NCBI GenBank assembly: GCA_023623175.1
Contig: JAMNXU010000001.1
Span: forward strand, 1 to 64,000
Direction: 5' to 3'
Origin: Bacillota bacterium
Lineage (GTDB): Bacteria > Bacillota > Clostridia > Acetivibrionales > JAMNXU01
Length of the DNA stretch: 64,000 nucleotides
The translations under genes and the position numbers were made by a program. Positions 18,132 through 22,481 of the stretch are shown here, piece by piece; positions within the stretch are counted from its first letter, which is position 1, and every line of letters begins with the position of its first letter. The notes below the pieces were generated by a model, which had not been told where the DNA came from, did no database searches, and saw only the letters and a list, made by a program, of their open reading frames with translations.

Positions 18132-18214
18132 TTTGATTTCGGGTTTCCCAAATTCCAACGAGTCTATTCAAACGAGTTTTTGCAGAAAAATCATATACAC
18201 ATTTTTCAGAAGAA

Positions 18215-18308: not shown

Positions 18309-18857
18309 ATGCTGGGCGACAGGATACGGGAAATAAGAAATGCAAAAGGCATGACAATCAAGGCTTTGGCAGAAAAAGTCGATGTCACTCCAAGCTATAT
18401 TTCACAGGTCGAAAGAAATCTTATCGAACCTTCGCTCTCATCCCTCAGAAAGATCGCAAAAGCTCTTTCAGTACCGATTTACCATTTTCTCGCCGATGAT
18501 AACAAGCAGTTTACAGTCATCAGGAGCGATGAACGCAGGAAGCTGGAACTGGCCAACAGTATGACCACATATCATTTTTTGTCTCCGTTTACGCTGAATG
18601 ATAACATGACTCCCAACATGGTCGCAATCTATTTCAAAATGAAGCCGGATGAGAGTTGCGAGGAATCCTTTGTACACAATGCGGAGGAGTTTTTATTTAT
18701 CCTGAGCGGCAAATTAAAAGTTACCATAGGCAATGATGAATATATTCTCTGTCCCGGTGACAGCGCCTATATAGAAAAGAATATCCCTCATACATTTTCA
18801 TTGCCTGAACCGCACCCGGTAGAAGCAATAAGCGTACTTTCACCGAGTATATATTGA
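18309..18857 (+). CDS. XRE-family regulator with C-terminal cupin
   Basis: 182-aa transcription factor: an N-terminal Cro/C1-type helix-turn-helix (residues 5-62, IREIRNAKGMTIKALAEKVD with SYISQVERN), and a cupin_2 domain (about 100-175, including EEFLFILSGKLKVTIG and HTFSLPEPHPVEAIS) that probably senses a small ligand. The architecture is that of PuuR-like regulators of catabolic clusters. ATG 18309 follows GTGGAGGA. It heads the peptide island, and its promoter shares TTAAGT elements with the ABC transporter promoter, so control of that operon is a reasonable inference. Confidence 0.9.
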   Translation: MLGDRIREIRNAKGMTIKALAEKVDVTPSYISQVERNLIEPSLSSLRKIAKALSVPIYHFLADDNKQFTVIRSDERRKLELANSMTTYHFLSPFTLNDNMTPNMVAIYFKMKPDESCEESFVHNAEEFLFILSGKLKVTIGNDEYILCPGDSAYIEKNIPHTFSLPEPHPVEAISVLSPSIY

Positions 18858-18887: not shown

Positions 18888-19979
18888 ATGATTTTGGGAG
18901 CATTGAACAACATTCATCTTGAAAGGAGCGGCCGCAGAAAAAGGTCTTCAAGTTACGATGAGACCGGCGGCAACAGGGACTATAAAAGGATTGAGCCCGG
19001 AGCGAAATGTTTGCTGCTGGATGTTGAAGGTCCGGGAATTATAACACATATATGGTGTACGCTGGCATCCTATAAGCCTGATGAAAAGTACCTGTACAGA
19101 AGGATTGTCATCCGCATGTTCTGGGACGGGGAAGACGAGCCCAGCGTGGAAGTCCCTATCGGAGACTTTTTCGGCATGGGCCATGGCATAGTGAAAAATT
19201 TCGTATCGGCTCCGCTTCAGATGAGCCCTGCGGAAGGAAAGGCTCTCAACTGCTTTTTCCCGATGCCTTTTGCAAGGGGAGCCAGGATAGAGGTCGAAAA
19301 TCAATCAGAGAACAGGATTAATCTCTACTACTACGTCGATTATGAAGAACACGATGCGCCTCCGGAAACAAGGCTGAGGTTCCATGCCTTCTGGAACAGG
19401 GAGATAACGGACGGCATAGATGATTCAACAGTAAGCAATGCCATTTACCAGTTCGGAGGGAAGAATACCACCGGCGAAGGCAATTATGTAATTCTTGAAG
19501 CCGAGGGAAAAGGTCATTATGTGGGCTGCAACGTCAACATTCACAATCTTAGGTTCACCCGCGAATCCAACTGGTACGGCGAAGGGGACGACATGATATT
19601 TATCGATGGTGAACCATGGCCGCCGTCCCTTCACGGCACGGGCACCGAAGACTATTTCAATACCGCATGGTGCCCGCAGGAGGAATACAATGCCCCATAC
19701 CACGGCATTATCCTTGGCGGGGGTCCTAACTGGTCCGGAAAAGTGACTTTTTACAGGTATCACATCCAGGATCCCGTTATGTTTGAAAAATCTATTAAAG
19801 TGACGATAGAGCACGGCCATAACAATCACAGGAGCGATGACTGGTCCAGTACGGCATACTGGTACCAGACAGAGCCCCACAAGCCAATGAGAAGACTGCC
19901 GGCGGTGGAGGAAAGGCTGCCACTCGACGACATTTTGCCTTTTAACCGCGAAGATCTGCTGAAGTGCTTCGATTATTAA
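18888..19979 (+). CDS. DUF2961 / glycoside hydrolase family 172 protein
   Basis: 363-aa protein of the DUF2961 family, now CAZy GH172, whose characterised members act on difructose anhydrides, alpha-D-fructofuranosides or alpha-D-arabinofuranosides. The hallmark GTGTEDYFN is at residues 250-258, with candidate acidic residues E254 and D255; the N-terminal GPGIITHIWCT and the YRYHIQDPVMFEKSI region also fit. No signal peptide is visible, so it acts inside the cell. ATG 18888 follows CGGAGGT, 30 bp after the regulator. A glycosidase-type enzyme in a peptide-uptake operon is unusual. Its exact substrate cannot be read from sequence. Confidence 0.85.
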   Translation: MILGALNNIHLERSGRRKRSSSYDETGGNRDYKRIEPGAKCLLLDVEGPGIITHIWCTLASYKPDEKYLYRRIVIRMFWDGEDEPSVEVPIGDFFGMGHGIVKNFVSAPLQMSPAEGKALNCFFPMPFARGARIEVENQSENRINLYYYVDYEEHDAPPETRLRFHAFWNREITDGIDDSTVSNAIYQFGGKNTTGEGNYVILEAEGKGHYVGCNVNIHNLRFTRESNWYGEGDDMIFIDGEPWPPSLHGTGTEDYFNTAWCPQEEYNAPYHGIILGGGPNWSGKVTFYRYHIQDPVMFEKSIKVTIEHGHNNHRSDDWSSTAYWYQTEPHKPMRRLPAVEERLPLDDILPFNREDLLKCFDY

Positions 19980-19994
19980 ACATTATTTAAATAT

Positions 19995-20204
19995 GATTTT
20001 CCTGTAAAATTCAATTTGCAAAGATGTCGTTGAAATCAGCAACGTCTCGCCTCGCGTCTCAAACGAACGGACCACATACGCGCATCCTGCGCTAGGAGTG
20101 GTCCGTTCGGAGGCATCCGACCTCCGAATCGTTTTCGACGCTGCGGCTCGACGGCTGATTTTGACAACTCATCTTTAAGCAAATTTCGTTTTTACAGGAA
20201 AATC
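19995..20204. repeat. 210-nt imperfect palindromic element with internal hairpins
   Basis: Outer arms are perfect over 15 bp (19995-20009 with 20190-20204). Pairing continues with gaps through AAATCAGC 20033-20040 / GCTGATTT 20154-20161 to a perfect 12-bp stem 20064-20075 / 20098-20109. Two apical hairpins are GCGCA/TGCGC (20080-20084, 20088-20092) and CGGAGG/CCTCCG (20108-20113, 20121-20126). It has no coding potential, fills the gap between the GH172 and aminopeptidase genes and is more GC-rich inside than its flanks. A MITE-like element or a large RNA fold are the main options. Confidence 0.75.
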
Positions 20205-20233
20205 AAACATTAAAAAGTGGAGGGTATATTCTT

Positions 20234-21343
20234 ATGGATCCGCGGATACTGACGTTTGCCGACATACTGGTCAATTATTCAAGTGGAGTAAAAGCCGGCG
20301 ACAAGGTGCTTATCCAGTGTTACGGCCTGTCGGCAAAACCTCTTGTAAAGGCGCTCGTACGAAAGGTATATGAAGCCGGCGGTTATCCCATGGTGGATTT
20401 GAGGGATACGTCCATAACCAGGGAAATCAACATGGGAGCGTCCGAAGAATCCCTGGAGTATACCCTGCGGCATGAATTGAACGTGATGAAAGACACCAAT
20501 ATTTTTATAGGCATCAATGCCTCGGACAATATCTATGAACTGTCGGATGTGCCGCTGGAAAAAAGTAACCTTATTGCAAAAAAGTCTGCCCCGCTGTCAA
20601 GGGAAAGGATTGAAAATACAAAGTGGGTCGTTCTCAGGTATCCCAATGAGTCAATGGCGCAGGCCTGCGAGATGAGCCTTGACAGCTTTGAAGATTTTTA
20701 TTTCAGAGTTTGCTGCATTGACTACGAAAAAATGTCGAGGGCTCAGGACCGGCTGGTCAAATACATGCAGAATACTGACAGGGTGCATATAAAGGGGCCG
20801 GGGACGGATATATCCTTTTCTATAAAGGACATCACCGTAATAAAAGATGACGGGCGTTATAACATGCCGGGAGGGGAAGTGGCCACCGCGCCGGTGAAGG
20901 ATTCCGTACAGGGCATTGTCTCCTTTAATACGCCCGCAGTATTTAAAGGAATCGTCTTTGAAAACATCGTTCTTGAATTTGAAAATGGAAAAATTGTAAA
21001 AGCCACCTCAAATTACACCGAAAAACTCAACAAAATCCTGGACATTGATGAAGGCGCAAGATACATCGGTGAATTTGCGCTGGGTCTGCATCCTCACATC
21101 AGGAAACCAATGAAAGATGTCCTTTTTGATGAAAAAATCTCCGGAAGTTTTCACATGGCTCTAGGAAATCCCTATGCAATAGCTGACAATTCCAACCGTT
21201 CCGCTATCCACTGGGATATTGTCTGCATACAGACGCCCGAGTACGGCGGAGGGGAGATATATTTTGACGATGTCCTTGTGCGCAGTGACGGCCTGTTCGT
21301 ACCGGAGGAACTTCAATTGCTCAATCCGGAAAACCTGGCGTAA
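20234..21343 (+). CDS. M29-family aminopeptidase (first copy)
   Basis: 369-aa metallo-aminopeptidase of the AmpS/aminopeptidase T family (MEROPS M29), removing N-terminal residues from peptides in the cytoplasm with two metal ions. Family regions are visible: the N-terminal LIQCYGLSAKPLVKALVRKV domain, GEFALG (E280), GSFHMALG and the C-terminal HWDIV, which carry the expected Glu, His and Asp ligands. ATG 20234 follows GTGGAGGG. It is followed 34 bp later by a paralogue, so the pair arose by tandem duplication. It probably digests peptides imported by the downstream ABC system. Confidence 0.9.
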   Translation: MDPRILTFADILVNYSSGVKAGDKVLIQCYGLSAKPLVKALVRKVYEAGGYPMVDLRDTSITREINMGASEESLEYTLRHELNVMKDTNIFIGINASDNIYELSDVPLEKSNLIAKKSAPLSRERIENTKWVVLRYPNESMAQACEMSLDSFEDFYFRVCCIDYEKMSRAQDRLVKYMQNTDRVHIKGPGTDISFSIKDITVIKDDGRYNMPGGEVATAPVKDSVQGIVSFNTPAVFKGIVFENIVLEFENGKIVKATSNYTEKLNKILDIDEGARYIGEFALGLHPHIRKPMKDVLFDEKISGSFHMALGNPYAIADNSNRSAIHWDIVCIQTPEYGGGEIYFDDVLVRSDGLFVPEELQLLNPENLA

Positions 21344-21377
21344 CCTTTGCGCAGGGGTCTTACAAGGAGTGTCTTTA

Positions 21378-22481
21378 ATGGATCAGCAAATACATCAGCT
21401 TGCCAGGATCATCACGCATCATTCCATACGGCTGAATGAAGGCGAAAAAGTGATATTGGAAGTCTTCGGCAGTGCGGCCGTGCCTCTTGCAAAGTCGGTT
21501 ATTAAAGAAATATACTGCTGCGGAGGCCAGCCCTTAGTCAGCTATGTCGAAAATGAACTGATGCAGGAATGGATGAGAGGGATATCCCCGGACCAGATGG
21601 ACTGCTTTGCCGAAATTGAAATGCTGAAAATGAAAAAAGCCCAGGCCCATATTTGCATCAGGAGCTTCGATAATACCAGCATTTACGACTCAGTGCCGGA
21701 AGAGAAGATCGTACTTTACAGGCAGAAAATGATGCCCGTGGCCCTCGAAAAAACCAATAACAAAAAGTGGCTTTTTACCATGTTTCCCGCCGAATCCACG
21801 GCTGAACGGCTGGGAATGAGCTATCCGGAACTGATGGAATATTACTGCTCAATGTGCAATATTGATTATGCCGCGGTTTCCGCTGCAATGGAAGAACTGG
21901 CCGATATGATGAGAAATACCGATGAGGTAAAAATCATCGGCGAAGGCACTGATTTGACTTTCTCGGTAAAAGGGATGCACGTTTCTGCGGATTGCGGATA
22001 CTACAACCTGCCCGACGGAGAAGTAAGGACAGCCCCCGTAAGGGAATCGGTGAACGGAAGGGTTTTCATAAACCTGCCGGTGAAACATGACGGGAAAGTA
22101 TACAGGGACTTCACGCTTCATTTCAGGGACGGCAGGATTGTTGAAGTAACGGGAAACGACAGTGAAGCCATAAACCGGATCCTGGATACGGATGAGGGTT
22201 CCAGGTATACGGGAGAGTTTGCGCTGGGGACAAACCCGAATGCAAACAGGCCTTTGGGAGAGATCCTGTTTGATGAAAAGCTGTGCGGAAGTTTCCACAT
22301 AACACCGGGGCAATGCTACAAGGATGCAGATAACGGGAATCATTCGCTGATACACTGGGACCTGGTCTGCATGCAGACCCCGGAATATGGCGGCGGGGAA
22401 ATATATTTTGACGGCCGGCTTGTCAGAAAAAACGGAAAATTTATCAAGGAAAGCCTTTCCGTGCTGAACGGCGGCGCATAA
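21378..22481 (+). CDS. M29-family aminopeptidase (second copy)
   Basis: 367-aa paralogue of the preceding protein with the same M29 regions (ILEVFGSAAVPLAKSVIKEI, GEFALGTNPNANRP, GSFHITPGQ, HWDLVCMQTPEYGGGEIYFDG). The two copies are clearly similar over their full length but well diverged, so they may differ in peptide preference. I chose ATG 21378, 7 nt after AAGGAG (21364-21369); the in-frame start at 21219 lies inside the first copy. The gene ends before the promoter and operator of the transporter operon. Confidence 0.9.
   Translation: MDQQIHQLARIITHHSIRLNEGEKVILEVFGSAAVPLAKSVIKEIYCCGGQPLVSYVENELMQEWMRGISPDQMDCFAEIEMLKMKKAQAHICIRSFDNTSIYDSVPEEKIVLYRQKMMPVALEKTNNKKWLFTMFPAESTAERLGMSYPELMEYYCSMCNIDYAAVSAAMEELADMMRNTDEVKIIGEGTDLTFSVKGMHVSADCGYYNLPDGEVRTAPVRESVNGRVFINLPVKHDGKVYRDFTLHFRDGRIVEVTGNDSEAINRILDTDEGSRYTGEFALGTNPNANRPLGEILFDEKLCGSFHITPGQCYKDADNGNHSLIHWDLVCMQTPEYGGGEIYFDGRLVRKNGKFIKESLSVLNGGA

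Follow-up and report, generated by a model that had tools for sequence, protein, structure and literature searches.

A 210-bp palindromic element, very probably a MITE, with a two-hairpin head and IS1182-like partners in other genomes

The element and its surroundings

The window, a 64,000-nucleotide stretch of DNA, contains an inverted-repeat element of 210 bp (positions 19995-20204, plus strand; GC content, 0.48) between two plus-strand genes: it starts 15 bp past the stop codon of a DUF2961 gene (18888-19979), and 29 bp separate it from the start codon of the next gene, which encodes an M29 peptidase (20234-21343). Positions 20234-22481 hold a tandem pair of M29-type peptidase genes, after which comes an operon for an ABC transporter of the peptide type. 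Upstream of an HTH-cupin regulator gene (18309-18857) lies what is probably a degenerate right end belonging to this family (18150 to 18192 or 18193, plus strand), whose terminal repeat (18176-18192) carries one mismatch.

The element is bounded by perfect 15-bp arms, the left terminal inverted repeat GATTTTCCTGTAAAA (19995-20009, plus strand) pairing with the right one (20190-20204, minus strand); autonomous insertion sequences (ISs) of other genomes end likewise. Inward of the arms, interrupted helices of 7, 7, 12, 4, 3, 1, 5, and 6 bp form a single stalk topped by two adjacent plus-strand hairpins. Hairpin 1 (20067-20106) has the loop CATCCTG at 20083-20089, which reads CAGGATG on the minus strand, and hairpin 2 (20107-20127) has the loop CATCCGA at 20114-20120. 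Folding of positions 19975-20224 gave -108.4 kcal/mol, compared with -56.7 ± 4.2 kcal/mol for 200 shuffled sequences, none of which equaled it (z = -12.3). The initial annotation had described a palindromic 210-nt element with perfect 15-bp arms and further interrupted pairing that ends in two apical hairpins, and all of this is seen in the fold; the 12-bp stem that it reported also exists (20029-20040 with 20154-20165) but sits in the middle of the stalk instead of directly carrying the hairpins. A known structured-RNA family was considered and rejected, as an Rfam search with the window element returned no match near threshold.

The flanks had been suggested to hold a target duplication, AAACATTA. 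Both of its occurrences are present (19978-19985 and 20205-20212), but they probably do not represent a real duplication. A likelier one is the pair of 6-bp sequences touching the arms, AAATAT (19989-19994) and AAACAT (20205-20210), which are identical at five of six positions; support for a 6-bp length is statistical and comes from copies in relatives.

Copies, target duplications, and partner insertion sequences

Searched at the DNA level, the 2.85-Mb draft genome to which the window belongs gave 29 matches. These correspond to 26 sites, since two matches are the element paired with its own opposite strand and two others are halves of one site. A covariance model identifies ten of these sites as near full length; one is the window copy, and the other nine are 76 to 94% identical to it. 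They share common borders, bearing out the sharp ends noted in the initial annotation. The remaining sites are truncated or internally deleted, and several of 66 to 120 bp have lost the middle and kept both ends. Shared borders and end-sparing internal deletions are together the footprint of a transposon defined by its ends. None of the 49 copies examined lies within an open reading frame (ORF).

Beyond this genome, a model search of 58 genomes of the order matched only the genome itself and G011, a member of another family of the same order, with 27 model matches, mostly of ∼203 bp. Among the 29 G011 copies with enough flanking sequence, nine are bordered by an exact 6-bp repeat; when right flanks were shuffled among copies, the mean was 0.51, and none of 2,000 trials reached nine. 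Three copies have perfect 7-bp matches, and duplication lengths of 3 to 5 and 8 to 10 bp showed no clear excess among G011 copies. In the window's own genome, an exact 6-bp duplication is found at one of 13 copies (L004), two more, the window copy being one of them, match at five of six positions (L001 and L005), and the other 10 match at no more than two of six. Target sites are AT rich, mostly of the form A....T, and no unoccupied counterpart of an insertion site was encountered. The search for further copies in the genome and its relatives proposed in the initial annotation yielded about 26 sites at home and, in G011, copies with flanking duplications. G011 also contains very short forms of ∼54 to 88 bp (L084, L092, L095, and L096) that extend barely beyond the two ends.

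Searches for the element in phages and plasmids gave no match, and an exact 23-mer from the right arm was absent from GTDB contigs and IMG/VR. A distant DNA match in another genome (G037, L030) lies within a coding sequence and looks like chance.

A scan for the terminal repeat found at least 112 loci in GTDB contigs and 17 in IMG/VR; among the matches listed, 25 of 129 loci have a second inverted repeat within 4 kb. The paired loci listed are mostly short elements, many of them in SKW22, Syntrophomonadaceae, and other Clostridia. Read by eye, 15 further short repeat pairs outside G011 showed exact duplications of 6 bp in seven cases and of 7 bp in two; folding of 15 other short elements with such ends gave no two-hairpin head of this kind. 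At L256:1481-1726 (G682), a MITE apparently lies inside or beside another short element with like ends, second terminal-repeat pieces flanking it on both sides, and at L204:6389-6516, in a bin labeled Nitrospirae SZUA-224, there is a near-perfect palindrome of 128 bp whose terminal repeat is of this type as well.

Seven ISs carry the terminal repeat on both ends with zero to four mismatches (L175, L232, L230, L231, L243, L257, and L169). L175 is 1,929 bp long and encodes a 547-amino-acid protein with DDE_Tnp_1_6, DDE_Tnp_1, and DUF772 domains. Of 291 genomes of the class, 13 encode relatives of this protein, several of them in ISs with these ends (L232, L230, L231, and L243); the host of L230, G006, belongs to the same order as the window's genome. 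Exact 6-bp duplications flank L231, L243, L169, and L257, and exact 7-bp duplications are found at L236, L244, L248, and L249; those of a more distant set in G297 are of 7 bp. No exact duplication was seen at L175 and L230, and L232 reaches the end of its contig. Two genomes of the same phylum link ISs and MITEs by shared variant ends: in G682, the end CTGCATAAACTC is common to the MITEs and to the single intact IS found, which has the target duplication AAAAAT, and in G577, the MITEs and a broken IS both terminate on the right in GATTAAACTGCAAAAAG. ISs that combine these ends with 6- to 7-bp duplications and an IS1182-like DDE transposase exist in the order, in the class, and in the phylum of the window's genome. 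Seven partner transposases cover nearly the whole NCBIfam model NF033551 but score 128 to 163 bits, below its cutoff of 270, and their 6- to 7-bp duplications are unlike the 4 bp or none given for IS1182 members in the parts of the family descriptions at hand. For these two reasons we call them IS1182-like and not IS1182.

When the window's genome and G011 were compared with two IS1182-like transposases, neither gave a match, and no cognate transposase was found in them. The sole IS1182-type ORF in the window's genome is a relic with four in-frame stops (L228, G000:C34:5263-6306); it lacks these terminal repeats and was rejected as the parent. Terminal-repeat-like sites in the same genome were also considered as transposase sources, and no transposase was found at C17, C26:108437 (a 66-bp mini-element), C22, or C9, nor at C34:36703, which lies within a coding sequence.

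We conclude, with a probability of about 0.9, that the element is a non-autonomous mini-transposon (miniature inverted-repeat transposable element [MITE]), repeated and with precise ends in an inverted terminal repeat. It has features by which a MITE is recognized: it is a short non-coding repeat with terminal inverted repeats, its copies in G011 show target duplications, and autonomous partners with the same ends reside in other genomes. We infer that an IS1182-like transposase would bind the ends of ∼17 bp and act in trans, and that it would insert the element at AT-rich intergenic positions with a 6-bp stagger. The source transposase would have been lost here or be missing from the draft, in which case the copies around the window would be decaying orphans.

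Fold conservation and its possible meaning

Within the window's genome, 15 of 74 stem pairs show changes on both sides, compared with 6.2 in column shuffles. This lineage and G011 were compared by majority letters in a model-made alignment of 43 rows, from which 10 minus-strand reads of own copies were excluded. Of the 74 pairs, 25 showed double changes, compared with 0 to 4 when the partner was slid by one to three columns; of the others, 38 are the same, one changed on one side, nine are broken in one lineage, and one is gapped. Because an alignment made in this way favors the structure, the covariation argument depends on the slid controls and on independent folds of single sequences. A single G011 copy folds alone into the same shape, as do most other copies; in their best fold, two of the 10 own copies and four of the 23 from G011 lack a simple two-hairpin head at the expected places, and the central part is not unusually stable in 2 of the 10 own copies. 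A model based on G011 recovers all 10 own copies with 49 to 89 bits, and one based on the own copies recovers G011.

The two-hairpin shape was also found in G070, of the same class, and in G682 and G577, making five genomes in all. Class- and phylum-wide model searches scored six candidates per genome, so that absence from them is weak evidence; G011 itself was not among the matching genomes in the class-wide search run in this way. TCC loops are present in hairpins 1 and 2 of 9/10 and 9/10 own copies and of 17/25 and 23/25 G011 copies, respectively. The loops of the G682 copies are likewise TCC, as are three of the four from G577, but the G070 loops are without the motif. A stalk with two hairpins is kept in distantly related bacteria despite changed stem letters, unusually for a MITE.

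An RNA read in one sense tolerates G.U mismatches but not A.C mismatches. In three counts made from folds, the two kinds are level (27 G.U to 19 A.C, 20 to 17, and 48 to 50), and a fourth (32 to 54) favors A.C (P = 0.02). Since they are about equal, a one-sense RNA is not indicated. Copies between co-directional genes are read as plus in 17 cases and as minus in 11 (9 and 2 in the window's genome, 6 and 6 in G011, and 2 and 3 elsewhere), which together is not significant. The initial annotation had left the choice between a MITE-like element and a dispersed structured RNA, to be informed by covariation. The first half of that choice is supported by the sharp borders and wide dispersal of the copies, by the 6-bp duplications of relatives, and by the autonomous ISs with these ends. 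For the second half, a role as host RNA is not supported: covarying stems are there, and strongly so, but with G.U and A.C mismatches balanced and no significant orientation bias they do not indicate one. Mismatch balance and insertion in both orientations and outside ORFs fit maintenance at the level of DNA, with single copies drifting after insertion. Template switching inside palindromes can create paired changes in one step, so covariation alone is no proof of selection. What template switching leaves over is the conservation of the loops in four lineages; a plain palindrome would not conserve them. Less certainly than the transposition steps, the stalk and hairpins would be maintained in a lineage that is still moving, perhaps by a hairpin or cruciform that brings both ends together, perhaps by template switching that corrects one arm of the palindrome from the other.

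The surroundings of the window copy bring to mind a cis-acting mRNA element, a processing or stability hairpin read as plus between the DUF2961 and M29 peptidase genes: the gaps of 15 bp to the preceding stop and 29 bp to the next start lie on one strand, and own copies between co-directional genes are oriented nine to two. The even orientation in G011, the many different gene pairs that copies adjoin, and mutations that do not spare G.U over A.C make this explanation unlikely, and any effect of the window copy on mRNA would probably be a by-product of its insertion. An intergenic repeat whose stable hairpins have conserved loops might also recall single-strand elements of the IS200/IS605 or REP type, whose hairpins are recognized by an HUH transposase. 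Such elements are not known to have a terminal inverted repeat or a target duplication; the present element is bounded by true terminal inverted repeats, its relatives duplicate 6 bp of target, and DDE-type ISs carry the same ends, so that we give this reading almost no weight.

Loops retained while stems change also raise the idea of a mobile RNA module, in which minus-strand transcripts show paired CsrB-type loops that serve as dispersed CsrA sites or sponges. Hairpin 1 loops of the form C-N-TCC-T-G, CAGGANG on the minus strand, occur in the window's genome, G011, G682, and G577; two GGA loops are found in six of eight copies compared, and where both are present they lie 26 to 31 nt apart on the minus strand. 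In the accessible part of one account, CsrB hairpin loops carry CAGGA(U/A/C)G, and a CsrA dimer bridges sites 10 to 63 nt apart (PMC7652899). Against such a module stand the balance of G.U and A.C mismatches, the occurrence of both orientations (in the window, the plus strand would be the one transcribed), TCG in place of the motif in 8 of 25 G011 hairpin 1 loops, and its absence from G070; the known antagonist of Firmicute CsrA, as far as the source excerpt goes, is a protein, FliW. A regular-expression search for csrA in the loci at hand gave nothing convincing, which says little. We regard the module as improbable and the CsrB-like reading of the minus strand as speculative. There is a similarly slim chance that the two-hairpin head is a functional module spread by transposition that may scatter hairpins bound by CsrA or another protein across the phylum. 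A MITE, probably moved by an IS1182-like transposase, is the explanation that we retain.

Significance and comparison with known systems

Most descriptions of bacterial MITEs portray them as degraded remnants of ISs with an interior that does not matter. In the present case, the interior has a specific fold with mostly fixed loops, kept in genomes of a single phylum while stem letters are swapped pairwise, which makes the question of whether a MITE interior does anything testable with an identified transposase. The element also illustrates that a deep fold with strong covariation can mislead a search for RNA families, for which the balance of G.U and A.C mismatches offers an easy way of telling RNAs and DNA palindromes apart. 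It resembles CsrA-sequestering RNAs of the CsrB/RsmY type in its CAGGANG loop motif and paired hairpins, on the minus strand only, and differs from them in being a transposable palindrome, read as plus in the window and known here from sequence alone.

Among ISs, the partners stand close to the IS1182 family in matching nearly the full NF033551 model, yet score below its cutoff (128 to 163 versus 270 bits). Their duplications of 6 to 7 bp differ from the 4 bp given for ISPse1 in the part of the report at hand (PMC3281130) and from the palindrome replacement with no duplication described, in a similar excerpt, for IS1272 (PMC5678879). QMITE2 of Coxiella burnetii is likewise a MITE, and its transcript is predicted to fold very stably; it has 7- to 9-bp duplications and another host, and the portion of its description drawn on here does not mention covariation across lineages (PMC10969869).

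The open-license literature yielded IS1182-linked MITEs in Methanosarcina and nothing identifiable as the window element. The MITEs of Methanosarcina acetivorans, of 160 and 169 bp with the IS1182-family partner ISMac2, are a close counterpart according to the available text: they too are short, non-coding, multicopy elements with terminal repeats and an IS1182-type partner (PMC3852290). Their direct repeats are 4 or 0 bp, compared with 6 (7) bp here, and the conserved two-hairpin head of the present element is a feature that the same text does not mention for them (PMC3852290).
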